From a virus: DNA of 43,990 bases. Below the pieces are notes generated by a model. It was not told where the DNA came from. It searched no databases and saw nothing but the letters and a program-made list of their open reading frames with translations. The translations under genes were made by a program, and so were the position numbers. Of this stretch, positions 5,781-39,040 are shown in pieces; position 1 is the first letter of the stretch; each line of letters starts with the position of its first letter. Location: positions 1 to 43,990 of IMG/VR virus record IMGVR_UViG_3300034198_008039, one strand, 5' to 3'.

Positions 5781-7661
5781 TTACTCGCCCAAATTGGGAT
5801 TGTTTAAAATTCTGTTGCCTGCCGAGAAACCAAAGCGATTGACCAGTTTGGCGCGACCTGCGTCAGACGCAATGACCCATCCTTCTTGGCCGGGTTGTTG
5901 ACGATCTAGCTGAGCCAACATGTCTGTTTTGATTTCATGTAGTAACAAGAAGGCAGTAAAGGCAGCTGAAATACCATCCAGGTTTGATCTTGGACTCTGT
6001 AGGTATTCCACAATGTTGTTGTACTTGCGCGGTGTCACTGACTGTTGCAACCATGGGCCAAAGTCTGCCAGCAAGTTGGAGTAGTCTGTGTCAATTCTCG
6101 AATTGATATAACGCTTGCATAGCTGTGGCAAATCTGTGATGCCTGCGGCCCGCAAATCAGCAGGATTAAACAGCGAATCAATTGCGGCGCCATTTTGTGC
6201 TACCACACTACGTAATTCACGTTCTAGCTTTCTGTTGGGTGTGACATTTTTGATGTCTTTTTGTGTGGGCTCAATCAACAACAGGCCCGGATGCGGGTTA
6301 AATTCAATGCGTCGGATTGGTTCTGCTGGCGCGGCAGGATCAGCATAACGTGTGTGTACAGCAATGCCCACTTCAGAGTTGCCAATAGCTTCGCCTAACG
6401 TACTGGCAACAGGAATACGATATTCAACAAAATTGGGTTTGAACACATAAGCACCTGCTTGCTCAGGAGGAGTTTCAGTATAAAGTAAATCACCCTGTAC
6501 ATAGCCTTTAAAATTGCTCGGAGTAGCGGCCTCCAACATGGGCCATAGTTTTGCGTAAATGCCAATTAATTCACCACGTTCACCGCTACGCATGTTCTGT
6601 ATGCGTGCCAACTGATCAGGACTGGTTGCTAATCCATCATAGCCCTTGGCCAAAAATCCTGATTTATCTGTCAGCACAAAACGACCGTCGGGTTTGCGGC
6701 CCCAAATGATTGCTGGTTTTCCGTCCCATTTGACTGTGGTTGTTTCTGCTGTGTTTGTGGCGGCTGCTTGAATAATGGCCAGAGCTTCTCGTATGCCACG
6801 GGTGCCTTTTTCAAACACCAGATCTTCAAGATGTTCAATTCTGGCAGCAGCTTCCGTCAACTGTTGACGTTCAAATATAGGAGTCATGCCTTGATTAACA
6901 ATTCTATCTCGTAGACGTGCCAAAAAGTTTACTTCTGTGTATCCGGTAGGTGGCGGTAATTGCATGCCTTCCATAAAAGGCACACCTTCGCGAGCAAAAT
7001 GCTCACGTGCATCTTTTAATTTTGCATCCTTTTTGGGATCTGTCGCCAAGGCTGCTATAATGGATTCTACACTGAGTAAGTCTTCTTTTGTAGCGGATTT
7101 ATTTAAAAGAATTTTTGCAATGGCATCAGGATCATTGGAAATGATTTTGTTTGTGGCACGATCCTGTAGTCCCGCTGTTTGATTTAATTTATAGCCCATT
7201 GATTTGGCCATTGAATTCATCAACACATTACGATCCTGTCCGCGATATGCACTGTCAGAGGAAGCCGATAACATGAATTTTGAAAATGGCACATCTTTTA
7301 AAAACATAAAGTCTGTTTGTACATAGCCTTGATCAGGACGTCCATTGATGGGTGTTTTAAAATGCACTGAGATACCGCTTTTGCGAACGTATTCTTCGGG
7401 CTTTAGTTTGTTTGTTTGTGCCCATTGTGTTAGCTGTGCAACCATTTGTTCTTTGGTGAATTCATTGGCATCCACTGCTAGATCTAGGTCACCAGATGTG
7501 GGCTTGCGTCCTGTTGAACCCAAGGTGGCATCCTGCAGGTCCATGCCTGTGAGTTGTTCTAGCCAAGCTATGGTGCTTCGAACATCTGTTTGATTGATAC
7601 GCTGTGTTAATGCTCGGTTGGAAGCATCTTTGAAGATGTTGCCGCCCTCAGTTATGTGCAT
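5781..7661 (-). CDS. Two-headed nucleotidyltransferase: Pol-beta-type NTase + ligase-like KxDG domain
   Basis: A 626-residue protein. Residues 47-64 read LGSTGRKPTSGDLDLAVD, the complete Pol-beta-superfamily NTase signature (GS, then D58-x-D60), with a likely third carboxylate D117 in YVQTDFMF. A second domain contains TVKWDGKPAIIWG (K311-x-D-G314), the motif I pattern of DNA/RNA ligases and capping enzymes, then FVLTDKSGF, GELIGIY and YVQGDLLY, which could be later ligase-fold motifs. Substrates are unknown; options are RNA end repair, tRNA or protein nucleotidylation. I chose the ATG at 7661 (TAATG overlap with the preceding stop) because MHITEGG is the natural start; a 25-residue extension is possible. 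The N-terminus resembles capsid-targeting peptides. From memory the family is present in marine T4-like phages, uncharacterised. Confidence 0.75.
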   Translation of the reverse strand: MHITEGGNIFKDASNRALTQRINQTDVRSTIAWLEQLTGMDLQDATLGSTGRKPTSGDLDLAVDANEFTKEQMVAQLTQWAQTNKLKPEEYVRKSGISVHFKTPINGRPDQGYVQTDFMFLKDVPFSKFMLSASSDSAYRGQDRNVLMNSMAKSMGYKLNQTAGLQDRATNKIISNDPDAIAKILLNKSATKEDLLSVESIIAALATDPKKDAKLKDAREHFAREGVPFMEGMQLPPPTGYTEVNFLARLRDRIVNQGMTPIFERQQLTEAAARIEHLEDLVFEKGTRGIREALAIIQAAATNTAETTTVKWDGKPAIIWGRKPDGRFVLTDKSGFLAKGYDGLATSPDQLARIQNMRSGERGELIGIYAKLWPMLEAATPSNFKGYVQGDLLYTETPPEQAGAYVFKPNFVEYRIPVASTLGEAIGNSEVGIAVHTRYADPAAPAEPIRRIEFNPHPGLLLIEPTQKDIKNVTPNRKLERELRSVVAQNGAAIDSLFNPADLRAAGITDLPQLCKRYINSRIDTDYSNLLADFGPWLQQSVTPRKYNNIVEYLQSPRSNLDGISAAFTAFLLLHEIKTDMLAQLDRQQPGQEGWVIASDAGRAKLVNRFGFSAGNRILNNPNLGE

Positions 7662-8275
7662 TATACTTTGGCCAATTCTTGATCTAAAAATTTTGTGAAC
7701 GCTTGGTCTGGAACTGTGCCTGTCTGATCTGCCCACACTCCTTGATCATTGATAGTGTATGTTTTGTTTCTAAATTGTAGTACAGCAGGATTGACACTGA
7801 TTACCTTGACTGCTAGGCCACCACCACTGGCGGAAATGTCTGGTGCAGATAGGCCAGCCTGTTGAACTAATTTGGAAAATAATTGTGCCACTTGATTTGG
7901 GTCTGCTTCCGCCGCAGTGATCTGATCAATCAATTGATTGAGTTCTTGACGATTCACAGCGTTATTGATTGATTGTCCAGCCAATAAATTCTTTTGTACA
8001 AATGCTTGCAATGTTTGTTTGTACAGTGTGGCATATCTAGCAGGATCAGGATTGGCTGCTTTTAATTGTCTAGCATACTGTAACCAAGCAGGAACAGCTT
8101 TGTCAATTACTGTTTGCATTTTTTTTGCACTGGCACGGTCAGTTTTGGCATTTATGCTAGCAGCGGTGACATTGCCGCGTTGCTTGGTCAATGCGCCAAC
8201 AGCACCAGCAGCAGCGTTTTTAATACCTTGCAGTATACCAGCTTCATTTAGCTGTGTGATTTCATGAATTTGCAT
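7661..8275 (-). CDS. Unknown protein, possible internal virion protein
   Basis: A 204-residue protein that starts MQIHEITQLNEAGILQGIKN. The first 13 residues follow the M-x-I/L-x-E pattern ending in E-A-G, like T4 head peptides cut by the gp21 protease after glutamate. The rest is alanine- and glutamine-rich and helical (AVPAWLQYARQLKAANPDPA), ending in a beta-like segment (LQFRNKTYTINDQGVWADQT). It is translationally coupled to the two-headed nucleotidyltransferase. Its composition and context fit a protein packaged in the head, but this is inference. Confidence 0.65.
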   Translation of the reverse strand: MQIHEITQLNEAGILQGIKNAAAGAVGALTKQRGNVTAASINAKTDRASAKKMQTVIDKAVPAWLQYARQLKAANPDPARYATLYKQTLQAFVQKNLLAGQSINNAVNRQELNQLIDQITAAEADPNQVAQLFSKLVQQAGLSAPDISASGGGLAVKVISVNPAVLQFRNKTYTINDQGVWADQTGTVPDQAFTKFLDQELAKV

Positions 8276-8545: not shown

Positions 8546-9553
8546 TTAATTAGTGGTTCCACATACATCATTACAAATAACCAAACGACCTTGCTCAAAT
8601 GTAGGAATAGTCCAGGTTTTTTCTACTTCGGTAAACCATTCTATGCATTCTTTTAAAGAATATTCTAACGCATTGTTTTTTTTCATAATGGGTTTCAATT
8701 GAGCGTTTGCAGCTTGGTGATATTGGCCAGCGCCATAAGTGTGTGGGTAAAATCCGGTGTGACAACAGGGACTAACATCACCATTGGCAGCAATATAAAC
8801 ACTGCGTTGTTTTTTGACGGCACATTCTATTTGTCTGGGTATTCTGTCAGCAACAATATCTTCCAACAACACTGTGTCTGTGATTTTTTTATGAAACAAC
8901 ACGGTAAATTCTTTTTCTCCGGTGTAGTTACCCATGACATGGGTCAGCTTGCCTTGTTTGTCAAATACTGGCGCTGTGTTTCTACCCTGATTCACCCGGT
9001 GAAAATTTTTAAATCCCAGAGTTTGACTTAATTTTTCACATTGATCAATTTGATGAAGATTGTGATCAAATTCAATCATTTTCCATGTGGCATGTCCTCC
9101 AGCTTGAATAAAAGTTTGGGCATTTTTAATCACAGTGGACCATGACGTATTTTGTCTGTACAAGTGATGCGTGTCTTCAAGTCCGTCTAATGCAAATGTC
9201 ACATGAACTTGAGCTTGCGCCAATCTCTTCCAAAAATCACCGTTTCTAGCTGATCCATTGGTACTGATCTCAATTGTTAAATCTTTGTTGTGCTGTCGAA
9301 AGTACTCAACAATGTCAGGAGTTTCTGGATTCATCACAGCATCTCCATAGTTGCCATTGATCATGATGACCGTTAATTGAGATAAAAATTCAGGTGTAAA
9401 GATATGTTGAGCATAGTCCACTGTGAAATTCAATTCAGGATAGCCGCCGTTGTATGGGTATCCCCAAAATGTTCTTGGACACCATGGACAACTGGCATTG
9501 CACAGTGTGGATATTTCTAAATGGACATGGCGTATTTCATCAACAGAATACAT
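8546..9553 (-). CDS. Radical SAM enzyme with C-terminal SPASM-like cysteines
   Basis: A 335-residue protein with the radical SAM triad C18-x3-C22-x2-C25 (CNASCPWC) near the N-terminus, which should bind a [4Fe-4S] cluster. The later motif YIAANGDVSPCCHTGF with a preceding C (IECAVKK) and a C-terminal ICNDVCG resembles a SPASM/twitch auxiliary-cluster domain, often found in peptide-modifying enzymes. Substrate unknown. Its start overlaps the stop of the helicase gene (TAATG), so it is co-translated with gp41, an odd place for such an enzyme. It lacks the N-terminal cysteine domain seen in the four radical SAM proteins at 30-37 kb and so belongs to a different subgroup. Confidence 0.85.
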   Translation of the reverse strand: MYSVDEIRHVHLEISTLCNASCPWCPRTFWGYPYNGGYPELNFTVDYAQHIFTPEFLSQLTVIMINGNYGDAVMNPETPDIVEYFRQHNKDLTIEISTNGSARNGDFWKRLAQAQVHVTFALDGLEDTHHLYRQNTSWSTVIKNAQTFIQAGGHATWKMIEFDHNLHQIDQCEKLSQTLGFKNFHRVNQGRNTAPVFDKQGKLTHVMGNYTGEKEFTVLFHKKITDTVLLEDIVADRIPRQIECAVKKQRSVYIAANGDVSPCCHTGFYPHTYGAGQYHQAANAQLKPIMKKNNALEYSLKECIEWFTEVEKTWTIPTFEQGRLVICNDVCGTTN

Positions 9554-10953: not shown

Positions 10954-11887
10954 TTTGCTTTTTCCTTAATTCAATCTTTATCTTACTGTGTTCTCGTGCT
11001 TGCATTATAATTAGCAATGCTCCTAGTCTGCCATACTCAATCACTGCATCGTTTACATCTTTTATTTCATCTCCCCACTGGGGCATGCTCACTGACCACC
11101 CTAGTTCAATGGCACGATCCACCAGTTTCATTCCTGCTGCATCTTGATCGGGTACCACAACAACTTCTCTACCCAGACTTCTGATCACCCGTACTTGCGC
11201 ATCGTTAATTTCGGCATGTAGCACTGCCAGTCCTCCAATGCTGAGAGCATCAAATACACCTTCCATGACCAACACTGATTGCCATGCGTTGCGTTGTAGG
11301 TCAGTACCAAACACATACCCGGGTTGCATGTCATTTAGATATTTGGGGGTACGATCGTCTAGAAATCTGGTACAATTTCCCACCACTTGATTGTCATGCG
11401 TGAATGGAATAACAATGCCTGGACGTGGTGTTGCCTTGAACAAAAATGGATAGTCCAAACTGATACTTCTACGGTTCAAATATTCTATTGCTTGTGCTGA
11501 CAACTCTTCAGTGTCTGCAGGTAAATCACGTTCTTCAAATTCGATATCCACTGGCTTTTCAACTAGCTGTCTAGATTCTAAAATACCATTAATTGATTTG
11601 TGTCGTAGACTTTCTAAGTTAATACGTTCTATTTCTTCCTGGGGAACCATTAACCATGACAAAAACTTGCGTGCTTTGAATGTTAAATTACGCCCCAACA
11701 CAAAGCTGGCAGTATATCCACAGTTAAAACAATGATAGCTCCATCCTTCCTCGCCGAGCTTCAATCCGCCACGCGATCTTCGATCTTGGTTTTCACCATT
11801 GTGTACACAACAAGGTGCATTGAAACTTATCCAGCCCGAACTTGATGTCTTACGTCGAGCAGGTAGATAAGCGAGAATGTCTAGCAT
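10931..11887 (-). CDS. gp61: DNA primase, T4 gp61-like
   Basis: A 318-residue primase. An N-terminal zinc-binding region has C26, C27, H29 and the pair C53-x2-C56 (HCFNCGY). The TOPRIM domain has E209 in VLVMEGVFDALS and D247-x-D249 in VVVPDQDAAGM, the metal-binding residues. It makes RNA primers for lagging-strand synthesis with gp41, whose gene it overlaps by 23 bases. An SGNH-type gene ends inside its first codons. The layout SGNH-primase-helicase-radical SAM is a single tight transcription unit. Confidence 0.92.
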   Translation of the reverse strand: MLDILAYLPARRKTSSSGWISFNAPCCVHNGENQDRRSRGGLKLGEEGWSYHCFNCGYTASFVLGRNLTFKARKFLSWLMVPQEEIERINLESLRHKSINGILESRQLVEKPVDIEFEERDLPADTEELSAQAIEYLNRRSISLDYPFLFKATPRPGIVIPFTHDNQVVGNCTRFLDDRTPKYLNDMQPGYVFGTDLQRNAWQSVLVMEGVFDALSIGGLAVLHAEINDAQVRVIRSLGREVVVVPDQDAAGMKLVDRAIELGWSVSMPQWGDEIKDVNDAVIEYGRLGALLIIMQAREHSKIKIELRKKQIVKRLRN

Positions 11888-12621
11888 TCATACATTGTAC
11901 AGGAATCTATTTGGGAAATCAAGCGATCGCGGACAATTTGATGTCCAAGTTCGTTGGGGTGGCCGCCAGGCATGATCAGTTGTCGTTTTTGGTTGTCCAC
12001 ACGGTCTCTAAAATGCATGGTCCAAGAAAAATCAGGTTCTATAATGGTGTCCAAATTCACAGTCATTGGGGGAGGCATAATATGAAATTGCATAGTGGGT
12101 ATTTTTCTTTTGTGGCTCACACTGTCAAACAATAGCACTGCCTGTTGATAGTTCAATGCCGACAATTCTCTTGAATCAGTCAATACCAAATAGCGTTTGA
12201 TCATGTCAGTGAATTCGGGTCCAATTACACTGCTGCCAAAATGTATCCATGTGCTGTGTACAAACTTGTTCCAAGGAGGGTCGTTTGAATAATGCGTATG
12301 ATTGGGATTGTAGAAACTGGTTCGATCTGCTTCAGTCAATGCTACCAACACCAGACATTGATCCGGGTTGGGCTCATGTTCCAGCCACCAGAGATAAGTC
12401 CAAATAGTGCTTTGTAAACTGCCTCCGGGGATACCAAAATTTTCAGTGGGTACATTGTAATGTTGGCCCAACAACCCTAAAAAGCAATGCTGTTCTCTAT
12501 AGGGTACATTTTGTACCCAACAAGAGTGTGCATCTTTTTCAGTTGCAACCAACACAGGATCCAACAATTCGTCGCCGTACATCCAGGAGTCGCCAAACCC
12601 AACAATCTTTTTGAATTTCAT
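11881..12621 (-). CDS. SGNH/GDSL-family hydrolase-like protein
   Basis: A 246-residue protein. It opens with VGFGDSWMYGDEL (block I, nucleophile Ser in GDS), has FGIPGGSLQSTIW (block II-like Gly), and ends with GGHPNELGHQIV, the block V region with the catalytic His. SGNH hydrolases cut esters, often acetyl groups on glycans or lipids. No signal peptide, so it should act in the cytoplasm. Many phage members may modify or bind sugars; the real substrate is unknown. It overlaps the primase start by seven bases. A second, diverged SGNH protein lies at 33910-34842. Confidence 0.75.
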   Translation of the reverse strand: MKFKKIVGFGDSWMYGDELLDPVLVATEKDAHSCWVQNVPYREQHCFLGLLGQHYNVPTENFGIPGGSLQSTIWTYLWWLEHEPNPDQCLVLVALTEADRTSFYNPNHTHYSNDPPWNKFVHSTWIHFGSSVIGPEFTDMIKRYLVLTDSRELSALNYQQAVLLFDSVSHKRKIPTMQFHIMPPPMTVNLDTIIEPDFSWTMHFRDRVDNQKRQLIMPGGHPNELGHQIVRDRLISQIDSCTMYEC

Positions 12622-28993: not shown

Positions 28994-29737
28994 GTGAGAC
29001 AAGCTCTTGTCGAGCCAAGACACAATCAATTCGTGTTGGCGTAGTTCCCCGTGACGCTGAACACATTCATCCGCGGATTCGGGCAACAGTTTTCGATCAG
29101 CTAACTCATACCACGTGGTTGTTTTTGGATTCATCGGCATGTGAGAACTTTTGTACACCACTGCACTTAACCATGGATTGTTTGACTCTTTTTTAAAAAA
29201 TCCTGATCTACAATCCCACCCGGCAACCGCCAGCATATGAATCAAACTGACCATGGTGTGATGGTAATACACACCGTTGGGCTGATTGAACACTTGTTGT
29301 CTGGCTTGATAATTTGTTGTTTGTGGAACAACAATTGCCAACATGGCGCCATCACTGGCAATATTCCACCATTTGCTTAGAGTTCCTATTGGATCTAGAG
29401 CATACTGGAAAGAATCATGACACCATAGCACATCAAACAATGTTTTCTGTTTGGGTATGATTGTGGTTTCAAAGTCCACGGATTGATATGTAATGTTTGA
29501 ATATTTTTTTGCTATTGTCAACTGAGGGGCTAAATCGACTCCAATACAATCAATATTCAGCGGCTGAGGAGTGTCTTCTCTTGTGGTGCGAGTAGCCCAC
29601 CATTCTAAATCTAAGCCAGAGCCACAACCTAGATCTACCAAGGTTCCGATACTGGCCATGAAATCGTCGTATTCGTACAACATGTTCAACGTGTTTAAAC
29701 TATGTGCGTGACTTTCTTCTGCGTTTCGAAATGTCAT
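28979..29737 (-). CDS. Class I SAM methyltransferase
   Basis: A 252-residue protein with a clear SAM-binding motif TLVDLGCGSGLDLEWW, then IDCIGVDLAP and LFDVLWCHDSFQYALDP. This is the UbiE/Methyltransf_11-type layout, acting on small molecules or sugars. I chose the ATG at 29737, which overlaps the preceding stop (ATGA); an upstream start would add an unrelated 31-residue extension. The C-terminal half has no familiar motif and may define the substrate. Confidence 0.82.
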   Translation of the reverse strand: MTFRNAEESHAHSLNTLNMLYEYDDFMASIGTLVDLGCGSGLDLEWWATRTTREDTPQPLNIDCIGVDLAPQLTIAKKYSNITYQSVDFETTIIPKQKTLFDVLWCHDSFQYALDPIGTLSKWWNIASDGAMLAIVVPQTTNYQARQQVFNQPNGVYYHHTMVSLIHMLAVAGWDCRSGFFKKESNNPWLSAVVYKSSHMPMNPKTTTWYELADRKLLPESADECVQRHGELRQHELIVSWLDKSLSHLGLQ

Positions 29738-30186
29738 ATTGTGATATCCTCCATTCCTGCTGTGCGTAATCTCACAATGTGCCCCATTTGCCATTGTTTG
29801 GCATCTAACCCTTTGAGTATGCCCAGCCACTTGTTGCGTAACAGTGCTACTTCGTTGATAATGGTTTCAAAGTCAATGACTTCGTCTTCGCCGTCTACGT
29901 ACTTTTCAGCATCGCGACTGGTCAGTGCTCTAGCATATGCTTCCAAATATTTTTGAAAGTGTCGACGACGAATTTTACGTAATTGTATATTGAGAAAGTT
30001 AAGCACCGCTTCAATTTCTTGTAACTGATTGAAACGATGCTCAGTGATACCCGGCAACGCAGAGATGTTTTTCTCTACCAAGCCACCTATTCTACAATCA
30101 CGCTTGGCATCTCCTAACTCTCGTTCGTAGTGTTGAATAAAATCAGGAATGTTGCCCAACGATGCTACAACTTTGCTATACCACAT
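29734..30186 (-). CDS. Conserved phage protein of unknown function
   Basis: A 150-residue helical protein: MWYSKVVASLGNIPDFIQHY, GITEHRFNQLQEIEAVLNFL, RRRHFQKYLEAYARALTSRD and KYVDGEDEVIDFE. From memory it is highly conserved in marine T4-like phages, which would make it a core gene rather than part of the surrounding accessory genes. Size and helical, basic/acidic character could suit a recombination or replication accessory protein such as a UvsY-like mediator, but I see no specific motif. The ATG at 30186 overlaps the previous stop. Confidence 0.75.
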   Translation of the reverse strand: MWYSKVVASLGNIPDFIQHYERELGDAKRDCRIGGLVEKNISALPGITEHRFNQLQEIEAVLNFLNIQLRKIRRRHFQKYLEAYARALTSRDAEKYVDGEDEVIDFETIINEVALLRNKWLGILKGLDAKQWQMGHIVRLRTAGMEDITI

Positions 30187-31465
30187 AATTATCCATATAT
30201 TGTTTTTCAATCTCTATAAGCCAAGGAAACAACTCTCGCCAGTTTGTGCCACGGCGTTGATCTTTTTCATTTATGTATATTAACATTTTTTTGATTTCTT
30301 GCCAATCTCTTTGGTGATTAGCAATGCCCTTTCCTATACCTTCGATGTAGTTACAAATCACCTGATCCTCGTCAGTATCAATTGGCATGGCAGACACTAT
30401 CTTTTGAAAATCTTCCTCAAACACACCAGGTCCAAAATGTTTGGGTATAAAATAAGATGGGTCTGGGGATATAGTTCCGCTATATAGACTTACATGACGA
30501 ACCTGTCTCCACTCTTTTAATTTATGCATAAGTTCGGGCGCAGTTTTAATAGTCAGAGGACTAAAGACTTGATTCAATGCCAGTTTGATCCATTTTTGAT
30601 CCAATAGATATCGAAAATTTTTCTCCCAGTGTACCAGGTCCAGTCCATATCTTACATATTCTTGTTGGGGGCCCCAACAATCAATACTGGCAAGAATTTG
30701 TAAACTTTTGAGTTTACGATTGATCAACAATTTCCTAATTTTAACAATGTACTTTTCTAACAATGCCGGCGGGATCATCAAATTAGAAACTATATTTAAT
30801 TCACAATCTGCATTAGGAAACTGATCTACATAGTCTAAAATTTTGTCAAATTCTTTTTGAAAAAAAGGTTCTCCGCCTAGTATGTTCAGGCGGCGCAGAT
30901 ATTTAAACTCTTTTTCAAACCATTGTTGAAATGCAGGTAACAAATCTGTATAGCGAGGCTCCTCGACAACCTCAAGAGCTGCGAATTCAATTTCCTGAAT
31001 TTTAGATTGCCCAAAGCGACGATTTTCGTTGTTGATTGTACTACTCAGATCTGGAGAACAATACAAACAACTTAGTTGACAGGTATTGTTTAAAAAAACT
31101 TCAACTACCACTGGTTTTATTTCTACAGCAGTAGAATTTTGATCTAATTCCCGAGGATACATATTTGGTATGCTTAGATGCCACAATCGATCACTTACGC
31201 CACCAGCTGCCTCAATTTCTTTACAGTAATGGCATGTTGCTCCTTGTTTACCGCCGGGCCATTCGCCGGCTAACATTTTTTTTCTGTCTGCTATTTTTTC
31301 TGGAGTATTGTGGAAGTTATGAAAGTTTTCAGGAGTTAATTTACTTTCACTAGAGCGATAACACGACCTAGTGATACCAGAATTGAGTAGCAAGGTGCTC
31401 CAACTCCATTTGAGTTGGCAAGCGGTTTCAGTGTTAATAGGAAAGAATTTTTTTTCAGATGTCAT
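30176..31465 (-). CDS. Radical SAM enzyme with N-terminal SPASM/twitch-like domain
   Basis: A 429-residue protein. The radical SAM triad is C129-x3-C133-x2-C136 (CQLSCLYC), with RRLNILGGEPFF as the SAM-contacting GGEP motif. Before the barrel there are C16, C35 and C78-x2-C81 (CHYC), with spacing like a SPASM/twitch auxiliary cluster but at the N-terminus. It shares this layout with the genes at 31462, 34839 and 36523. Such enzymes modify peptides or small molecules through a radical; the substrate is unknown. It starts with an ATGA overlap with the radical SAM gene upstream. Confidence 0.85.
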   Translation of the reverse strand: MTSEKKFFPINTETACQLKWSWSTLLLNSGITRSCYRSSESKLTPENFHNFHNTPEKIADRKKMLAGEWPGGKQGATCHYCKEIEAAGGVSDRLWHLSIPNMYPRELDQNSTAVEIKPVVVEVFLNNTCQLSCLYCSPDLSSTINNENRRFGQSKIQEIEFAALEVVEEPRYTDLLPAFQQWFEKEFKYLRRLNILGGEPFFQKEFDKILDYVDQFPNADCELNIVSNLMIPPALLEKYIVKIRKLLINRKLKSLQILASIDCWGPQQEYVRYGLDLVHWEKNFRYLLDQKWIKLALNQVFSPLTIKTAPELMHKLKEWRQVRHVSLYSGTISPDPSYFIPKHFGPGVFEEDFQKIVSAMPIDTDEDQVICNYIEGIGKGIANHQRDWQEIKKMLIYINEKDQRRGTNWRELFPWLIEIEKQYMDNYVV

Positions 31466-32610
31466 TGTGTTTGATTGACCCAGTCTATAAATGAGGTTGG
31501 AAATATCTGTAACGATAAATTTCTTCTTCTTGCAAATTCTTTAATGTAAGTTACAAAATTTAATTTCTGTTGCTTACTGTATCCACTGTCTAGTGCTGTT
31601 TTAATCAACGAATCGTTCCATTGATACTTAGTTAATTTTAGATTGGCAACGGAGTCTGAATCCATTACTCCAACAGCAAGATAATCAGGATCGTTACAAA
31701 ACTGTACTGTGTTGTTGTCTTGTCCAAACTGATCTTCGAATTGTTGATATCCAAATAGTGTGAGATTAGTCAGAGTGACGGAAAATCTATACGGTATACC
31801 ATGTTGTTTGATAATCTCCATATTTTTCAAAAAGTTCTGATAAGAATTTCCATACCGAACAAACTCATACAAATCACCAGTGGATTCCCCGCTGATTACT
31901 AAACTTATATTGCTTTTTAATTTGTCAAGAATGGCAGAAAATCTCACTGGGTTAACTCCTAATCCTGTGAAAATTTCTATCGGACTTGAAAACTTATTTG
32001 TTAGTTCTTCTAGCCCGTTATACAAAAAAGGCTCTCCGCCGGTAATAGATATTGACCTTAGATTTTTGAGTTGCTCAGTTGAATCTAAAATGACTTTGAC
32101 TACTTGACTGTTTTTAAGCTGTTTCTGCCCAAGAGCTTCAATGATACGATCTTCAATATTGATTGTGTATCGTGCATCATTTAGATAAGATCCATTGGTC
32201 TGTATGTCTTTGTACCATGCGTTGCTATATTGTTTGCAACAATAAACACAAGTCATATTGCAGGCTGTACTCAGTACAATGTTTAATACCTCGGGCTCGG
32301 CATAGACTGCATTGTGTGTTTGAACTTGACCATTCATGCTCGTTCGACGACTTACAGCCAACTGATCTTCTGCGGCCCAACAATTGGCTTCACATGAAGC
32401 CACACGAACTCCATTGAGCATATTTTCTCGATCTTGTACTAATTCCGGAGTATTAAATATTTTTTCTGGATTTTGTTCAAGCCATTTTGTATTAATTGTG
32501 TAAGGACTGGCAGAACAACATGATGAAAGATTTTTACGTTCTAAATTTACAGTCAACCACCAAAATTTTTGATTACAATAAAAATCTTTAATAATCGTTT
32601 TCGTCTTCAT
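31462..32610 (-). CDS. Radical SAM enzyme, same group
   Basis: A 382-residue protein with radical SAM triad C117-x3-C121-x2-C124 (CNMTCVYC) and RSISITGGEPFLYNG. N-terminal cysteines C12, C31/C32, C73 and C77 suggest an auxiliary cluster. The recurring YEFVRYGNSYQNFLKNME resembles segments in the genes at 30176 (YVRYGLDLVHWEKNF) and 34839 (YIRYGGRWVDFLENL), showing common ancestry. The ATG at 32610 overlaps the end of the acidic-tail gene by 23 bases; longer frames are out-of-frame readings of that gene. Coupled to the next radical SAM gene. Confidence 0.83.
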   Translation of the reverse strand: MKTKTIIKDFYCNQKFWWLTVNLERKNLSSCCSASPYTINTKWLEQNPEKIFNTPELVQDRENMLNGVRVASCEANCWAAEDQLAVSRRTSMNGQVQTHNAVYAEPEVLNIVLSTACNMTCVYCCKQYSNAWYKDIQTNGSYLNDARYTINIEDRIIEALGQKQLKNSQVVKVILDSTEQLKNLRSISITGGEPFLYNGLEELTNKFSSPIEIFTGLGVNPVRFSAILDKLKSNISLVISGESTGDLYEFVRYGNSYQNFLKNMEIIKQHGIPYRFSVTLTNLTLFGYQQFEDQFGQDNNTVQFCNDPDYLAVGVMDSDSVANLKLTKYQWNDSLIKTALDSGYSKQQKLNFVTYIKEFARRRNLSLQIFPTSFIDWVNQTQ

Positions 32611-32842
32611 CATACTCGTCTTCGTAGTCTTCCTCGTCGTCCTCGTCGGCATGATCATCAAGATACTGTTTGAGTGCTTGCTTGACTTCGCTGTCGCTTT
32701 TAAACGCAGATTTGATTTCTTCGACACTGACGTCGTTGTCAATCAATACACTGACCAATGCTTCGGCAGCTTCGGCACGATCCATGCCGTTGACGTAACG
32801 TTTGATTTCTTGCCAAACTTCATTTGCTAATTCTACTGCCAT
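32588..32842 (-). CDS. Small protein with strongly acidic C-terminal tail
   Basis: An 84-residue protein. Residues 1-60 are helical (AVELANEVWQEIKRYVNGMD, VSVEEIKSAFKSDSEVKQAL). The last 20 residues are almost all D, E and Y. It lies one base downstream of uvsX. Acidic tails next to recombination genes often recruit partners or mimic DNA, as the gp32 tail does in T4; that role here is inference. From memory it is a conserved small protein of marine T4-like phages. Confidence 0.75.
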   Translation of the reverse strand: MAVELANEVWQEIKRYVNGMDRAEAAEALVSVLIDNDVSVEEIKSAFKSDSEVKQALKQYLDDHADEDDEEDYEDEYDEDENDY

Positions 32843-32843
32843 A

Positions 32844-33908
32844 TTATGCTTCTCCTTCTAAAGTTTCTTCAGGAGTACTTACCTCAGTGTTTTGATTTTT
32901 GAAATCAGCAATAATTTTGTCCAGACAACCATCGTCGTTGGCTTCCCACTTTTTGCGGAATTGTTTGATAATTTCGCCATCACTGGTAACAAATACTAGG
33001 CTATTGCCTTCTTTCTTGAGTAGACCTTTTTTCTCGGCCAAGTCGGTCATGCCTGAGTATGGACTCATTCCTGTGGTGTAAGGAATTTTAACTTGTACTC
33101 CTTCAAACGGTTTGGCATAACGTGTTTTCATGATCTTACAGGCTGCTCTGATGCCATTGACTTCTGAAACTTTGTTGCCATCTTCGTCTTCTTTGAGTTT
33201 GAGTTTTTTCATAGCAACCACAATACTTGATGCATAGATAAAACCTTGACCTCCTGAAATCTTGTCATCTGGATCAAACATGTCCTGACTTGCATATGTA
33301 TGGTTAGTACATACCATTCCAATATTATAACTGCCAAACATGTTGACACAGTTACGAACCAGGGCAGTAAGTGCTTTGGGTTTGCGGCCCAAGTCACCTT
33401 TCATTTCGCCTGCTTCAAACTGGTTGACATCAGTGGGAGTCAACAACATACCCAATGAGTCAATCACAAATAATACCTTTGGACGTTCGCCATCCGGTAA
33501 CGCTTTGTAATCACTCATGAATGTGGAAATCGTTTTGGCCACATCGTCGATCATGGCCATTGATAGTTTGAGCAACTTGCCTTCGCTGGTATCTACTCCC
33601 AAGGCCTGCAACCATGCTTCGTCTAGGGCATTTTCACTGTCTACCAACACAACAAAGATACCTTGCTCTTGTGCGTGTTTGACAATGTTGCCACTGCAGA
33701 TGTAACTCTTGCCTGCACCAGAATCTCCCGCAAACACAGTAACCTTGCCCATTGGAATACCTTTGTTAAAGTCTCCCGAGATCAAATAGTTCAAGGCAAA
33801 ATTGCCTGTTGAGATCCAGTCTGTTGGATCGTTAAATCCAATACTAAGACCGTCGATTGATTTTGTAATTTCCTTGCGGAACTTTGATACGTCAAATGGT
33901 TTTGCCAT
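32844..33908 (-). CDS. uvsX: RecA-like recombinase UvsX
   Basis: A 354-residue recombinase. Walker A is GDSGAGKS at 61-68, Walker B is VLFVIDSLGML, and the DNA-binding loop region is TNHTYASQDMFDPDDKISGG. It forms filaments on ssDNA and drives strand exchange for recombination-dependent replication and repair. I chose the ATG at 33908 with an AAGGA ribosome site; 13 more upstream codons would be unlike the family. Its length is slightly shorter than T4 UvsX. It is flanked on both sides by accessory radical SAM and SGNH genes. Confidence 0.96.
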   Translation of the reverse strand: MAKPFDVSKFRKEITKSIDGLSIGFNDPTDWISTGNFALNYLISGDFNKGIPMGKVTVFAGDSGAGKSYICSGNIVKHAQEQGIFVVLVDSENALDEAWLQALGVDTSEGKLLKLSMAMIDDVAKTISTFMSDYKALPDGERPKVLFVIDSLGMLLTPTDVNQFEAGEMKGDLGRKPKALTALVRNCVNMFGSYNIGMVCTNHTYASQDMFDPDDKISGGQGFIYASSIVVAMKKLKLKEDEDGNKVSEVNGIRAACKIMKTRYAKPFEGVQVKIPYTTGMSPYSGMTDLAEKKGLLKKEGNSLVFVTSDGEIIKQFRKKWEANDDGCLDKIIADFKNQNTEVSTPEETLEGEA

Positions 33909-33909
33909 G

Positions 33910-34842
33910 TTAATTTTCCTTAATAAAATTGTATAACTTTTCTGCATACTGTTGATGTTGCTTGACTCCAGGATGCAAATTGTCTGTTCCTAAATCTATA
34001 AACTTTATAGTATTTCCATTTATAATTAATCCCTGTGTTAAATCTATAAAATTGGGTAAGTCTTTTAATGCTATGCTGACCCAAGCAAAATCTAAAATAT
34101 TTGCAATGTATAATTTTACTTTTATTTTTTGACAAAAATTTACAACTTGTAAAATTTCTCTCAATGAAGTTAATACTTGGGTCTCGCTTTCAAAATAATC
34201 AAGTGACCAATATTGATTTTCTTTGTCTACTGTGAAATAATCACTAATAGGTACTGGATTAAAATTCCAATTTTTTGATATTGCAACCCTAGAAACGTTA
34301 GTTAATCCCCAAACTACTATATCTCCAGATCGTATATCGGATCTCAACAACTGATCAGCAGCCCAAAAAATTGAGGATCCTCCTTGTGATAATGTTATCT
34401 CGGGTAAATTTAAATAGTTGGCCAGTAAACTTCCCCATCTATCATTGTAATCAACACCGTTGCCATGCGTTACAGAACACCCAGCAGTCCATAAAACTGG
34501 ATTGTTATCAGTCCTTGTATTTTTTAAAAAATTAAAATCTTTTTTCCAAGTAAAAAAATTAATCTTACCAGGGTGTCTTGCAAGTTCGTTAAACAGTCTC
34601 CCATATGAAAAACAATTATCATTTGTAATATTAATATCCTCAGTGAGGTTAACCACTACAATTTCACTAGCATTGCTACATGCCACACTGATGTTTTCAC
34701 AAGATAGATCTTCTACCGATGTGTGACAATTTACATCGGTGCTGCTAGCAACAATTTTATCTATGTTATGTCTGTCAAGCAGTATAGAATCGTTACCATT
34801 CCAGTCATAATTAACGGTTGAAATATATAATTTATTAATCAT
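33910..34842 (-). CDS. SGNH-hydrolase-like protein, diverged
   Basis: A 310-residue protein. The first 110 residues have no known motif. Then WTAGCSVTHGNGV is a variant block I (GCSxTxG), followed by ITLSQGGSSIFWAADQLL, IVVWGLTNVSR and DNLHPGVKQHQQYAEK (block V, with the likely catalytic His). This type is seen in proteins that act on glycans or in secondary metabolism. It is visibly more AT-rich than the uvsX gene behind it, which suggests later acquisition. It overlaps the radical SAM gene at 34839 by four bases. Confidence 0.7.
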   Translation of the reverse strand: MINKLYISTVNYDWNGNDSILLDRHNIDKIVASSTDVNCHTSVEDLSCENISVACSNASEIVVVNLTEDINITNDNCFSYGRLFNELARHPGKINFFTWKKDFNFLKNTRTDNNPVLWTAGCSVTHGNGVDYNDRWGSLLANYLNLPEITLSQGGSSIFWAADQLLRSDIRSGDIVVWGLTNVSRVAISKNWNFNPVPISDYFTVDKENQYWSLDYFESETQVLTSLREILQVVNFCQKIKVKLYIANILDFAWVSIALKDLPNFIDLTQGLIINGNTIKFIDLGTDNLHPGVKQHQQYAEKLYNFIKEN

Positions 34843-35984
34843 TTTAATTTGTATAACTCTGTAAAAATCTTGCTGCTGTCTATTCCACGTCGTTGATCCA
34901 TTGCGGCTAACTGTTCAAAAGATCCAGCTAAATCTTTTTCAAACGGTTGCTCTATATAACTCAACATATTTTTGTAGCTGTCCTCGAGCAAATAACCCGG
35001 TTGGTCAGTGATTCTTTGTTGTATTTGATACTTTATTGATTGTAACACATGTTCTGGCAAATGTCTAATATTTAGGTATTCTGGAGTCAATAATGCACCA
35101 ATGATAAAACTGTTGTTATGAAACCCTAAATTTTTCAAATAATCCACACAGTCAAACACGGAACGATGATTTAACAGGAACCAAAGCATGTTAAAACTAA
35201 TTTTATGGTTTAGTTGTTTTATCTTTTGCAAATTTTCTAAAAAATCCACCCAACGGCCGCCATATCTGATGTATTCAAATGCATCGGTAACAGTTTCCAC
35301 ACTGACGGTCCAATGTACATTGGGAAATTCACAAATTCGATCAAATACCTGTGTGTCTGTTTTACTCAAATTGGTGTTGATACGTAGGTTTACATTAGGA
35401 TTGGTTTTTTGCAACAGTTCCAATAGTTCTAAATTTTCTTTCATCAACAACGGTTCGCCGCCGGCCATGTACACATGTTTGAGTGTGGATGCATGATCAA
35501 AGATATATTGTTTAAAACTTTCCAGTTGATCAAGGCCAGGGCGCACTATTTCTTCGTTTAATTCGTCGGCCCAGCGACTGCTAAATTCGGGGCTACAGTA
35601 CACACAAGAGAAATTGCACAAATTAGTCCACCGCACATCAATGGTATGCAAGTCATGTTGATTGGGTTGGTACGTATCCAATGGTATTTTTTTAAGTTCT
35701 TTTATGTAAAAAATTCTGTCACTGATAATATCAAACCCAGTTTTATTGCCTTCAAGATCATAACAAGTGTGGCAGTTTTTTCCAGGTTGATTGGTCAGCA
35801 TGCGTTGTTGAGTATCAAGATTGGTGGTGCCGTGTAGAATTTCTTTGATAGTGTTATCTTTGAGATTACCTATTGTTCCTGAACTACGAATACAATTTTT
35901 TACTTTGCCGTCAACATTGTACATCAGTCCAGTCCATGGCATGGGGCAAAAATTACGATTGGTCAATACGTCTTTTGGAGTCAT
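34839..35984 (-). CDS. Radical SAM enzyme with N-terminal SPASM/twitch-like domain
   Basis: A 381-residue protein, the clearest of the four. The N-terminus NFCPMPWTGLMYNVDGKVKN followed by CIRSSG, then CHTC (C13, C31, C71, C74), reads like a textbook SPASM half-domain placed before the barrel. The radical SAM triad is C123-x3-C127-x2-C130 (CNFSCVYC); HVYMAGGEPLL is the GGEP motif. NCBI-type twitch-domain radical SAM proteins have this layout. The stop of the SDR gene is three bases upstream, and the SGNH gene follows with an ATGA overlap, so the three may share a pathway. Substrate unknown. Confidence 0.88.
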   Translation of the reverse strand: MTPKDVLTNRNFCPMPWTGLMYNVDGKVKNCIRSSGTIGNLKDNTIKEILHGTTNLDTQQRMLTNQPGKNCHTCYDLEGNKTGFDIISDRIFYIKELKKIPLDTYQPNQHDLHTIDVRWTNLCNFSCVYCSPEFSSRWADELNEEIVRPGLDQLESFKQYIFDHASTLKHVYMAGGEPLLMKENLELLELLQKTNPNVNLRINTNLSKTDTQVFDRICEFPNVHWTVSVETVTDAFEYIRYGGRWVDFLENLQKIKQLNHKISFNMLWFLLNHRSVFDCVDYLKNLGFHNNSFIIGALLTPEYLNIRHLPEHVLQSIKYQIQQRITDQPGYLLEDSYKNMLSYIEQPFEKDLAGSFEQLAAMDQRRGIDSSKIFTELYKLK

Positions 35985-35986
35985 TG

Positions 35987-36526
35987 TTACAACGGTCCCA
36001 GTGATATATCTGGAATTGTTAGCCCATTATTGTTGGCAAGATCCAGCAAGTTTACCAATGTTTTTGCCCAGTTATTGACATCAGCTGCTGGTGGAACAGT
36101 TTTGTCTAAACTGGTAGCTATGTTACCAGGACGAACTATGGTAATTTTTACACCAAGTCGACGGTTTCGTATTTGTCTTACCGATTCCTCAAGTGTTACT
36201 TTTTGTATTCTATATTGATCCATGTCTAACCCCGGTAGCGTTGATACTGGATCTTGAGTCATCATAGTGCTGATCACAATGATATGTTTTTTTGTTCCTT
36301 GCCAACGTTGAGCCATTTCAAACAACAACTCAGTTTGTGCATATCCAGCTTGTGCATTGTTAACAAAAATATCGCATGGCTCAATTTGATCACAAATCTT
36401 GGGTGTATTCCTAATATTATTGCCTTCGCGTTTACTCAAACCAATGATCTCATAACCGTTGAGAGAGTATTCTTGTGCAAGAGCTTGTCCTATACCCGCA
36501 GTATGTCCAGTGATTGCTATTTTCAC
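35987..36526 (-). CDS. Short-chain dehydrogenase/reductase (SDR)
   Basis: A 179-residue compact SDR. TGHTAGIG at 6-13 binds NAD(P), NNAQ at 56-59 is the structural NNAG-like motif, S86 in VISTMMT, and Y105-x3-K109 (YRIQK) complete the catalytic set. IVRPGNIATS is the usual PG motif. The protein is shorter than typical 240-250-residue SDRs, so the substrate loop is reduced. It starts with GTG at 36526 (ribosome site AGAGGA). Its place between two radical SAM genes suggests it reduces or oxidises their product. Confidence 0.87.
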   Translation of the reverse strand: MKIAITGHTAGIGQALAQEYSLNGYEIIGLSKREGNNIRNTPKICDQIEPCDIFVNNAQAGYAQTELLFEMAQRWQGTKKHIIVISTMMTQDPVSTLPGLDMDQYRIQKVTLEESVRQIRNRRLGVKITIVRPGNIATSLDKTVPPAADVNNWAKTLVNLLDLANNNGLTIPDISLGPL

Positions 36527-37398
36527 GTGATTCCTCTCAGTTGTTTTTGTTTGCTTATGTATGCCTCTCTAGCATCGACATTGGCATTATCAACCGACAA
36601 TTCAAACGGCTGTTTAAGATAAGCGTAACTGTGATCAATACTATGTTCCTTGGCAAATGCCTGTATATTGGGTAAGTCCGTGACATTCAATATACTAACT
36701 GTGGTCCATAAGTTCAACTTAATAGGCATTGTTTTATATGTCATTAAGTTATTGTAAAAAGTATCCCACTTGATAGGCCAACGCATGAATTCGTGTACTG
36801 GGCCAATGCCATCACAACTTACAGTCACAGTGACTTCTATTCCCTTATCGACAATATCTGTTAACTCATTGAGTACTACATTACAATTAGTGTTGAGCCT
36901 GAGAGTCCGCAAATTTGGTGGCAAGTTGGCCAATAATTGTTTGTAATTTTTACTGTAACTTGGCTCACCGCCGTTGATATCTAAATGTACAATACGGTCT
37001 TGCGGTAAATTCCAAAAGCGACTACTGTTGTTTACAATAGGAAAAGTTTTGCCGACAAGGGCCCCGATTCGTGTACTACATCCAGGATTACACGTTTGAC
37101 AAGCAGCATTACATATGTTATCTAATACTCCGCCTACTTGTAAATAGTCTTTTTGTGTGGTTTGATTGTTCAATTGTGTGGCATATCCCCGTATGCTGTC
37201 GGGCTCAGTTTCCTGGCATCTTGCACATTCACTGGGCCATTGATCTGCTAGCATTGTTGCTTTGATTTTTGACAGCCATTCACTTGATTCCATCTGTTCC
37301 AGTGATTCAAATTGTGGTGGCGATACCATGTGCCCGCAACGACTCACTGTTCCGTTGGGATTAAATCTTACAAAGTGATCAAGTCTTGGGCAATGCAT
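36523..37398 (-). CDS. Radical SAM enzyme with N-terminal SPASM/twitch-like domain, short form
   Basis: A 291-residue protein. N-terminal cysteines C3, C21, C58 and C61 (CARC) form the auxiliary set. The triad is C96-x3-C100-x2-C103 (CNAACQTC) and HLDINGGEPSYSKNY gives the GGEP motif. It is about 90 residues shorter than its relatives at 34839 and 31462, with the loss at the C-terminal end. I chose the ATG at 37398 instead of the TTG one codon earlier. It is co-directional with the sulfotransferase gene, which it overlaps by 20 bases. Confidence 0.86.
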   Translation of the reverse strand: MHCPRLDHFVRFNPNGTVSRCGHMVSPPQFESLEQMESSEWLSKIKATMLADQWPSECARCQETEPDSIRGYATQLNNQTTQKDYLQVGGVLDNICNAACQTCNPGCSTRIGALVGKTFPIVNNSSRFWNLPQDRIVHLDINGGEPSYSKNYKQLLANLPPNLRTLRLNTNCNVVLNELTDIVDKGIEVTVTVSCDGIGPVHEFMRWPIKWDTFYNNLMTYKTMPIKLNLWTTVSILNVTDLPNIQAFAKEHSIDHSYAYLKQPFELSVDNANVDAREAYISKQKQLRGIT

Positions 37399-38050
37399 CA
37401 ATGATATGTTGTGTTTTTTTAAAAATTAAATCATACAGATTTGGATGTTTGAGTTGTATGTCGGTTACCAACTCATTGACTGTCACTGACTGACCTATTC
37501 GGTCAAGCAATAATTGGTCTAGATAAAAATATAAATCAAGTTTCTTCCAGTTAAAATCGTTGATACTTTCTAAAAATTTACTTGATGGAGGATCAACCTC
37601 TGCACGAAAATTCATGTTAGCTAACCCGTCGATATCACTGATTGAACATAACTTTAACTGAGTTTCTGGGTGTAGATATTTATTGAGATTTAACAACCAA
37701 AAGAATTGTGGGCAATAGTGCCGATTCAAAAACAAATAATTATTCACAAACCATAAAATGGTTTTGTGATCTAGCTCAGGAAAATCTCTGTTGAGATGCT
37801 GTAGATAAGTGTTAACTCCGCTGATAAATCTTTCTTTTGGTGCCCGTAAAAAAACAGTTATGGGCTGACGTATTTTTGTAATACAATCATTGGTTAAAAT
37901 TTCCCAGTCAGTTCGATAACCTTTTTGAATTTGTACAAAAAATGAACTACTACCGTTTTTCATTATAGGAAAAACGTATTGCTGTGAGGAACCCAAATAG
38001 ATCACCTCACAGCGTTCTGGAAAGATAGTGTTATCTATCTCACTAAACAT
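37379..38050 (-). CDS. Sulfotransferase-like protein
   Basis: A 223-residue protein. YVFPIMKNGSSSFF is a PAPS-binding 5'-phosphosulfate loop (KNGSSS, K31), and ITVFLRAPKERFISGVNTYL is the 3'-phosphate-binding motif (R69, RFxSG). Both match the Sulfotransfer_2 group of carbohydrate sulfotransferases. It would move sulfate from PAPS to a hydroxyl or amine. No signal peptide or TM segment. It is directly after gp32 and leads into the radical SAM/SDR set. Confidence 0.8.
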   Translation of the reverse strand: MFSEIDNTIFPERCEVIYLGSSQQYVFPIMKNGSSSFFVQIQKGYRTDWEILTNDCITKIRQPITVFLRAPKERFISGVNTYLQHLNRDFPELDHKTILWFVNNYLFLNRHYCPQFFWLLNLNKYLHPETQLKLCSISDIDGLANMNFRAEVDPPSSKFLESINDFNWKKLDLYFYLDQLLLDRIGQSVTVNELVTDIQLKHPNLYDLIFKKTQHIIDALPKT

Positions 38051-38053
38051 TGA

Positions 38054-39040
38054 TTACTTCTGTTGACGTGCTCTAATCATTGCCAAAATATCTTCGGCTT
38101 TGTTGGCACCTGCTGCTGGCGCAGACACCGGAGCAGTCGCTGCCACTGGTTCGTCATCATCAAACGAACTTGTCACTGGTGCGGCTTTGGTCACTGGTGC
38201 TGGTGTGTCTTCGTCATGATGAACCACTGAGGCAGTGCCACCTGCGGGTGCTGTAACACCGGCTGGACGGAAGTACTGACCCCAACGCTCTGTGTCATAT
38301 GGTTGACCATCCACTGATGCTTCGAACATTTCTTTCATGACCTTGAGCTCAACGTCTGAGGGCTTTTTAGGTAAGAATGTTGATAGATCAAACAAACCGT
38401 GTGCTTCAATGGCTGCTTGTTCTGCTTCAGTCAATGCTGACTCTTTGCGAGCCCACTTTGAAGTTGAATAGTCTGCGTAGCCACCTTTGGCTGTTTTTGT
38501 GATACGGAAGTCTAGACCACGCATTAAGTCTGTTGGTAGTTCTTCCAGTTCTGGATCCATCAATGCTGACTTGATAGTGGCAAAAATTTGTGGACCAATG
38601 ATGAATCTACGAATTGGATTCTCTGGCGTCTTGTCTTCGTTCATTGGGTTTTCACGTACAAAGCCTTGGAAAATGTATGAACGTTTTTTCCAATACTTAC
38701 GACCCATTTCTTCTAGTGATTTGTCTTTGAACCAAGTGCGTACTTCTGCTAGGATTGGACAAGCTTCTTGCCACATTTCAACGCAGGGTACTTGTACCAT
38801 GACTTGTTTGGAATCCATTTCGCCTTTGATTCCGTTGAATGGCAAACGAATCATTGCTCGTTCTGCCCAGAAAAATGTGTTCTTTGGATTTGCGTCTGGT
38901 AAGAAGCGTAGTGTTGCTGATGAACCTTCTTCCATATTCCAGTGTGCGTAAATTGAATTATCGCCGCCTGATGATTGACCGCCTGGTTTATTTGTTTCTG
39001 TAGCTGCTAGTCTTGCTCTGATTTCTGCTAATGATGCCAT
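38054..39040 (-). CDS. gp32: Single-stranded DNA-binding protein, T4 gp32-like
   Basis: A 328-residue protein. The core (YAHWNMEEGSSATLRFLPDA, KYWKKRSYIFQGFVRENP, RRFIIGPQIFATIKSALMDP) matches the gp32 OB-type domain of marine T4-like phages. It binds ssDNA during replication and repair with UvsX, UvsW and gp41. Only two of the zinc-site cysteines remain (VPCVEMWQEACPIL), so the T4 zinc site looks lost. The C-terminus (SFDDDEPVAATAPVS) is a P/A-rich linker, and it ends with ILAMIRARQQK rather than in a strongly acidic tail. The ribosome site is weak. Confidence 0.9.
   Translation of the reverse strand: MASLAEIRARLAATETNKPGGQSSGGDNSIYAHWNMEEGSSATLRFLPDANPKNTFFWAERAMIRLPFNGIKGEMDSKQVMVQVPCVEMWQEACPILAEVRTWFKDKSLEEMGRKYWKKRSYIFQGFVRENPMNEDKTPENPIRRFIIGPQIFATIKSALMDPELEELPTDLMRGLDFRITKTAKGGYADYSTSKWARKESALTEAEQAAIEAHGLFDLSTFLPKKPSDVELKVMKEMFEASVDGQPYDTERWGQYFRPAGVTAPAGGTASVVHHDEDTPAPVTKAAPVTSSFDDDEPVAATAPVSAPAAGANKAEDILAMIRARQQK

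Follow-up and report, generated by a model that had tools for sequence, protein, structure and literature searches.

T4-like marine phages can carry about a dozen radical S-adenosylmethionine (SAM) genes in a single genome, together with iron-sulfur (Fe-S) assembly genes that encode an A-type carrier or IscU (PMC5332604). In pelagimyophages, radical SAM cassettes vary between close relatives and lie within the host-recognition cluster (PMC7029224), and the Baikal methylotroph phage VP_139, a freshwater T4-type phage, encodes radical SAM, MetK and methylthioadenosine/S-adenosylhomocysteine (MTA/SAH) nucleosidase genes, from which its authors read pyrroloquinoline quinone (PQQ) biosynthesis (PMC7678222). 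Here we analyse a 43,990-base virus record (IMG/VR record IMGVR_UViG_3300034198_008039, whose full length is called the window) in which four genes stand between those of a gp32-type single-stranded DNA (ssDNA)-binding protein and the recombinase UvsX. They encode a sulfotransferase-like protein (ST), a short radical SAM enzyme (RS4), a short-chain dehydrogenase (SDR) and a second radical SAM enzyme (RS3). Two further radical SAM genes (RS1 and RS2) and a gene for an SGNH-type protein lie close by. The conclusion that ST-RS4-SDR-RS3 is one phage auxiliary cassette, moving and working as a unit, is well supported.

The cassette compares with these systems as follows. The T4-like marine phage genes are listed in the covered sections of PMC5332604, whereas the cassette, its order and its mobility are not described there. 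The pelagimyophage cassettes occupy another location, and the text of that study names no sulfotransferase (PMC7029224). The MetK and MTA/SAH nucleosidase genes of VP_139 resemble genes found in some loci of our analysis (families f23/f48); the PQQ reading was rejected for the cassette, as nothing ties ST-RS4-SDR-RS3 to PQQ. The unit was not found in the open full-text literature searched, subscription papers and preprints lying mostly outside that search. Radical-SAM-rich phages with Fe-S genes are already published, and the ST-RS4-SDR-RS3 cassette was not found in the literature searched. Among cultured phages, tblastn of RS1, RS3, RS4, ST, SGNH and SDR gave no match. A cellular origin of the cassette was also considered and rejected after searches of cellular genomes with RS3, RS4 and the curated radical SAM family NF033640 (N_Twi_rSAM). 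No match to the RS3 profile was obtained among 84,980 genomes, in a pattern search that reaches close relatives only; with RS4, in a search of the same reach, the sole match was a phage-like contig that had been binned in a metagenome-assembled genome (MAG) of the Porticoccaceae. Of 274 genomes from the class of that MAG, 2 matched NF033640 at E<=1e-25, one match being the RS4-bearing phage-like contig.

Gain, loss and order of the four core genes

Relatives of the locus were drawn from IMG/VR with RS3 (177 found, 80 kept), RS1 (78), RS4 (at least 593 confirmed, 80 kept) and uvsX (at least 600 confirmed, 80 kept), and their genes were called with a simple open reading frame (ORF) caller and profile searches. 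The uvsX and RS1 draws involve no selection for the core genes, whereas the RS3 and RS4 draws are biased towards them. Because most contigs are fragments and the draws were limited to 80, the resulting slot frequencies are rough. Among 61 complete gp32-uvsX slots selected by uvsX, 48 held no core gene, 11 held all four and 2 held ST-RS4 only; no other subset occurred. Complete slots selected by RS1 comprised 29 with no core gene, 8 with all four and none with ST-RS4 only, and in the biased RS3 and RS4 draws all four genes were present in 114 of 116 slots. On a uvsX tree, the 11 core carriers required 11 label changes, at least 8 of them forced by starred branches, which is no better than shuffled labels. 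Since the carriers are scattered over this tree, the whole block has been gained or lost repeatedly between close relatives. The first-pass annotation, made from the window alone, had proposed that the locus looks like a phage-encoded modification pathway; this reading is supported in part, and ST, SDR, RS3 and RS4 are strictly co-conserved.

ST and RS4 overlap in 165 of 165 pairs, mostly by 14-20 nt, and an overlap of 4 nt joins RS4 to SDR in 108 of 126 pairs and SDR to RS3 in 117 of 164. Because neighbouring core genes share 4-20 nt in most loci, there is no room among them for a precursor peptide gene, in agreement with the first-pass annotation, which had seen none. The gene for an 84-aa acidic protein behind uvsX was considered as a precursor and ruled out, since it is present in loci without the cassette. 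The catalytic motifs of the core are intact, and purifying selection acts on every family (median dN/dS 0.07-0.12, against 0.05 for uvsX).

One lineage (L125, L129 and L153) carries the permuted order SDR-RS3-ST-RS4. In marine phage-like contigs (L238-L243) the unit lies at other genomic sites, with 29-49% identity to the family proteins (measured for L238). The marine forms are a 2-oxoglutarate (2OG)-oxygenase-like gene followed by SDR/RS3/ST/RS4 (L241), by SDR/ST/RS4 (L238 and L239) or by ST/RS4 (L240), as well as ST/RS4 alone (L242 and L243). A gene that is SGNH-like by sequence motif comes next on the opposite strand in L238-L241. These forms identify ST-RS4 as the minimal pair and SDR-RS3 as a second pair, the same two blocks that are swapped in the permuted lineage. 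In the cultured jumbo phage Phosso the site is empty: the gene ahead of the recombinase occupies the place of gp32, and a gene of 77 aa, close in size to the 84-aa gene, follows the recombinase, both being annotated as hypothetical only. Separately, a tandem second SDR copy (~34-44% identical to known SDRs) stands before RS3 in L100, L164, L185, L189 and L222.

Families of the encoded enzymes

All four radical SAM proteins match NF033640 over most of their length and share its order, with the twitch before the barrel (scores in Table 1). The curated cut-off of this family is 170 bits; by that score RS1 and RS3 are members, whereas RS2 and RS4 fall below it and are classed as relatives. RS4 also ends just past the barrel, and the name of the model gives no function. 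The cysteines of RS3 (C13/C31/C71/C74, then C123/C127/C130) and RS4 (C4/C22/C59/C62, then C97/C101/C104) do not vary across the 44 and 45 aligned sequences, respectively, and RS1 and RS2 have the same layout, with invariant twitch cysteines N-terminal to CxxxCxxC. A twitch domain has four cysteines and one cluster, whereas SPASM has seven cysteines and two auxiliary clusters (PMC6231123). Because only four conserved cysteines precede the barrel, the domain in RS1-RS4 is a twitch with one cluster and not a seven-cysteine SPASM. The first-pass annotation had noted SPASM/twitch-like cysteines before the barrel and called the order unusual: the position of the cysteines is invariant in all four families and the twitch label holds, the SPASM label falls, and the order, unusual among solved enzymes, already defines a curated family.

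In a profile search of the Protein Data Bank (PDB), the RS3 N-terminus (11-87) matched the twitch of BtrN, the 2-deoxy-scyllo-inosamine dehydrogenase of the butirosin pathway (E=4.6e-4). The BtrN twitch is C-terminal, whereas that of RS3 is N-terminal, and no match between the RS3 and BtrN barrels reached the threshold. BtrN acts as an aminocyclitol dehydrogenase. Its twitch supplies four cysteines to one fully ligated auxiliary cluster (PMC6231123), and since RS3 and RS4 have four invariant twitch cysteines, they allow a fully ligated cluster of this kind. The RS4 barrel weakly matched cytosylglucuronate decarboxylase.

Profile-profile alignments join the four radical SAM families at 98.8-100% probability. 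The YxRYG-type segment said at first pass to be common to them is present in RS1, RS2 and RS3 as [FY]xRYG, while RS4 has RWP instead. In a tree of 56 radical SAM proteins, RS2, RS3 and RS4 each form one clade (100/100) and RS1 one group with weak support; RS1+RS2 form a supported group (100/98), with RS3 and RS4 far away. The four groups are long-stemmed, and each family has members in many other phages. Because these deep groups are common to many phages, RS1-RS4 are old paralogues, and the earlier suggestion of origin by duplication must be given up as far as recent local duplication is concerned. Up to 13 NF033640 matches occur in one phage contig. In L246, L247 and L248, five to six radical SAM genes of the N-terminal-twitch type stand in a tandem cluster with several SGNH-like genes on its flanks; a NodU-like carbamoyltransferase is encoded in L246 (by Pfam) and in L247 (by sequence), and an amidinotransferase-like gene occurs in L247, also by sequence.

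The ST of the window has no match of its own in Pfam, NCBIfam or PHROGs, and a PDB search with the ST profile gave chance matches only. In a 54-sequence alignment of the family, K31 (FKNGSSS), R69 and R74 (RxPxxRYxSG), H111 and Q115 are invariant, and position S77 of the R69xPxxR74xxS77 motif is invariant or nearly so (S/G). PF03567 (Sulfotransfer_2), which includes carbohydrate O-sulfotransferases, resembles ST in the lysine of the 5'-phosphosulfate loop, the R-x-P-x-x-R-x-x-S 3'-phosphate motif and the H-xxx-Q register, although ST is too divergent for the Pfam threshold. Against a bacterial Sulfotransfer_2 alignment gathered within the analysis, the ST family gave an hhalign probability of 77%, with the motifs for 3'-phosphoadenosine-5'-phosphosulfate (PAPS) in register, whereas nine control families gave <=0.4%. 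ST thus aligns with this family as a putative divergent Sulfotransfer_2-like protein that keeps the PAPS-site residues, which agrees with the first-pass label of PAPS sulfotransferase in its motifs, if not by a family match of its own. Assignments of fold in this analysis are drawn from sequence profiles. In the SDR family, TGxxxGIG is conserved and Y105 and K109 (YxxxK) are invariant across 37 aligned sequences, PF01370 scores above its cut-off, and the assignment to the SDR superfamily agrees with the motifs TGxxxGxG and YxxxK.

Layout of the locus and optional cargo

The window encodes T4-type replication proteins (a gp32-type ssDNA-binding protein, UvsX, UvsY, a DnaB-type helicase, a primase and a UvsW-type helicase), some of them named from sequence and gene order. 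Read along the minus strand, the order at the locus is gp32, ST, RS4, SDR, RS3, SGNH, uvsX, the 84-aa gene, RS2, RS1, uvsY and a methyltransferase (Table 1). The genes named at first pass are present, intact and co-directional, at the coordinates then given except for the start of RS2, whose listed TTG is too early; the start probably lies near 32613. The cargo has a G+C content of 0.31-0.41, below that of gp32 (0.46) and of the whole window (0.42).

Table 1. Features of the locus and Fe-S assembly genes of the window
Feature	Coordinates	Strand	Description
gp32-type ssDNA-binding protein	38054..39040	-	Resident; conserved upstream neighbour and upstream border of the slot; named by T4-type order and sequence, without a family match
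ST, divergent Sulfotransfer_2-like, 223 aa	37379..38050	-	First core cassette gene; putative, from conserved residues and hhalign
RS4, short radical SAM enzyme, 292 aa	36523..37401	-	N-terminal four-Cys twitch; overlaps ST; NF033640 140.8 bits
SDR, minimal short-chain dehydrogenase, 179 aa	35987..36526	-	TGxxxGIG, Y105/K109; Pfam Epimerase/adh_short
RS3, N-terminal-twitch radical SAM enzyme, 381 aa	34839..35984	-	NF033640 258.1 bits; N-terminus resembles the BtrN twitch
SGNH-type protein, 310 aa	33910..34842	-	Optional add-on between RS3 and uvsX; G-C-S and DxxHPG
uvsX recombinase	32844..33947	-	Resident replication gene; conserved slot; ~65-68% nt identity to RecA/UvsX of cultured jumbo phages
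84-aa acidic gene	32588..32842	-	Resident; in loci with and without the core; no Cys
RS2, N-terminal-twitch radical SAM enzyme	31462..32613	-	Separate optional cargo; NF033640 147.8 bits
RS1, N-terminal-twitch radical SAM enzyme, 429 aa	30176..31465	-	Separate optional cargo; NF033640 209.7 bits
uvsY recombination mediator	29734..30210	-	Resident; phrog_231, E=1e-13
IscA/HesB-type Fe-S assembly protein	1818-2159	-	PF01521 E=5e-15
IscU-type Fe-S assembly protein	2443-2826	-	PF01592 E=1e-52

At first pass these genes had been taken as one island interrupted by uvsX. The locus makes better sense as a set of T4-type replication genes (gp32, uvsX, the 84-aa gene and uvsY) that carry separate cargo, with uvsX as a resident gene that has cargo on both sides. 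The genome-neighbourhood comparison proposed at first pass shows ST, RS4, SDR and RS3 to be co-conserved, and RS1 and RS2 not. These two sit between uvsX and uvsY; RS1 occurs both in loci that have the core and in loci that lack it, and the presence of RS1 and of RS2 was independent of the core among contigs drawn with uvsX (Fisher p=0.19 and 0.67). They are separate enzymes of the NF033640-type family placed nearby, and SGNH is a rare add-on. Among complete loci, its gene lay between RS3 and uvsX in 6 of the 92 that bear the core and in none of the 71 that do not (p=0.036), and a 2OG-type gene (f19) is a common insertion in the gp32-uvsX slot, found in 14 of the 92 and none of the 71; both figures are indicative only, because the pooled locus set mixes four draws. 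In f19, H80, D82, H129 and R141 are invariant. The SGNH protein has no Pfam match; its G-C-S and DxxHPG motifs, invariant in 10 sequences, correspond to the catalytic Ser and the DxxH of an SGNH hydrolase/acyltransferase. The first-pass names for both SGNH and SDR agree with the motifs kept.

Other cargo was seen in the same slot. Three core-free loci (L086, L093 and L102) hold genes that by sequence are amidinotransferase-like (f37) and glycosyltransferase-like (f101, f102). In L054 (9908-10738) and L090 (6500-7330), an adenosine-5'-phosphosulfate (APS)-kinase-like domain fused to a HIGH-type nucleotidyltransferase stands between RS3 and uvsX, and a DUF2061 gene (identified in L090 as PF09834) comes next. 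This fusion is a possible PAPS source for ST; supply of PAPS by an APS kinase adjoining ST was judged suggestive but weak and set aside. MetK was likewise rejected as a support gene, being present in 1 of 10 large contigs, one without the cassette at the slot. Elsewhere in the window, a fifth radical SAM gene (8546-9553) adjoins the DnaB helicase gene; it is of the ordinary type and has its SPASM-like cysteines at the C-terminus. Similarly, a second SGNH-like gene, recognised by sequence motif without a Pfam match, adjoins the primase gene (11881-12621).

Substrate and role of the cassette

We see about an even chance that the cassette makes a sulfated glycan decoration through radical oxidation or epimerisation, SDR reduction and O-sulfation. 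In RS3 and RS4, a 5'-deoxyadenosyl radical generated from SAM would act together with an auxiliary [4Fe-4S] cluster that the N-terminal twitch ligates fully. By analogy with BtrN, the two enzymes may oxidise or epimerise a carbon that bears a hydroxyl group, on a sugar or sugar nucleotide. SDR would reduce or epimerise the resulting keto group, and ST would move sulfate from PAPS onto the product. SGNH and, elsewhere, the 2OG-Fe(II)-oxygenase-like protein may provide optional acyl or hydroxyl tailoring, and phage IscU/IscA may help to load the Fe-S clusters. The product would be a sulfated glycan on the host envelope, altering a receptor or excluding superinfection, or on the virion. Sugar-related genes occur around the cassette: the window encodes GT8, GT25, FkbM-type and heptose-nucleotidyltransferase-like/cupin proteins; in L243, genes for a CMP-sugar cytidylyltransferase-RraA fusion and for a sugar-1-phosphate nucleotidyltransferase precede ST-RS4; and in large contigs of the phage group, tandem N_Twi clusters stand among SGNH-like genes, with carbamoyltransferase-like genes in 2 of 3 regions. 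The variation of pelagimyophage radical SAM cassettes inside the host-recognition cluster (PMC7029224) points the same way. The fused gene of L243 (1729-3036) joins a PseF/KdsB-like CMP-sugar cytidylyltransferase to an RraA-type aldolase domain. The same phage contig, which has a DnaB helicase, also holds a RuBisCO-large-like ORF (6533-7717; PF00016 E=2e-36; under the cut-off of the rubisco_III, OiaX and MtnW models) between the sugar-nucleotide genes and RSx-ST-RS4.

Several points weigh against this reading. The radical chemistry, the substrate and the product are what we infer for the cassette, and twitch/SPASM similarity does not predict substrate class, as similar enzymes do not cluster by function (PMC6231123). 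Likeness to BtrN does not extend over the full length with the barrel, the twitch (11-87) being the best-scoring stretch of RS3 (E<0.01), and the RS3 and RS4 barrels best match the peptide enzyme SkfB in the PDB (1.1e-6 and 8e-6). ST does not reach the gathering score of PF03567, which 7 of 54 relatives match weakly. The cassette itself is usually without a glycosyltransferase, the APS-kinase-like proteins beside it are rare and also occur without it, and IscU occurs in just 5 of the 10 large contigs, A-type carriers also in 5 of 10. The uvsX tree behind the gain and loss pattern is a quick tree that recombination may distort.

The SkfB matches favour an alternative in which the target of the radical SAM enzymes is a peptide or protein of the host or virion, encoded elsewhere, which ST also sulfates, for example on tyrosine. 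Many twitch/SPASM enzymes do act on peptides (PMC6231123), and many of the NCBIfam side matches are peptide maturases, all far below cut-off. We nonetheless consider this alternative unlikely: the overlapping genes include no precursor such as a sactipeptide or ranthipeptide operon would have, the Pfam matches of the window's radical SAM proteins include no RiPP recognition element (RRE, PqqD-like) for leader binding, and the 84-aa neighbour lacks Cys besides occurring without the cassette. Moreover, ST resembles Sulfotransfer_2, mainly a carbohydrate family. For the substrate class, we put carbohydrate at about one half and peptide or protein at one quarter. It seems improbable that the cassette makes a diffusible small molecule or cofactor, such as a sulfated inhibitor or signal, with no polymer decoration. 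SDR, radical SAM, sulfotransferase and 2OG-oxygenase proteins are common tailoring enzymes and the cassette interior has no glycosyltransferase, but neither a scaffold-building enzyme nor an exporter is present in it, and the persistence of ST-RS4 alone in some phages fits the modification of an existing host molecule.

The conserved position beside the replication genes gp32 and uvsX could suggest DNA or nucleotide modification that protects the phage genome. This is very improbable, as marine phages carry the unit elsewhere, the slot also hosts the unrelated amidinotransferase-like and glycosyltransferase-like cargo, and we know of no sulfation of phage DNA. Chance neighbours gathered in an insertion hotspot without joint function describe how RS1, RS2 and SGNH do behave; for ST, RS4, SDR and RS3 this idea is already disfavoured and hardly credible, since the four are nearly always present or absent together, occur in a permuted order as well and keep the same partners at a second genomic site. 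Taking the sulfated glycan further, we tentatively propose a mobile cassette, exchanged between phages as a block, that would combine N-terminal-twitch radical SAM dehydrogenation/epimerisation with sulfation on a surface or virion glycan; it would make a new sulfated modification and presumably govern host recognition or superinfection.

Aquatic phages commonly carry radical SAM genes that lack an explanation, and in the literature cited these genes are listed as generic auxiliary genes of Fe-S or PQQ type. For two of the enzymes, RS3 and RS4, joint gain and loss, seen repeatedly, now establishes ST and SDR as fixed partners, which provides a concrete four-gene unit to express and assay, with ST-RS4 as its minimal form. 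The cassette is carried by many uncultured lake and sea phages and is swappable between two DNA-replication genes, and its most likely product is an unusual sulfated sugar decoration. Should the product indeed be such a glycan, phages would turn out to remodel surfaces by radical chemistry that is sensitive to oxygen, and family NF033640 would gain a function.

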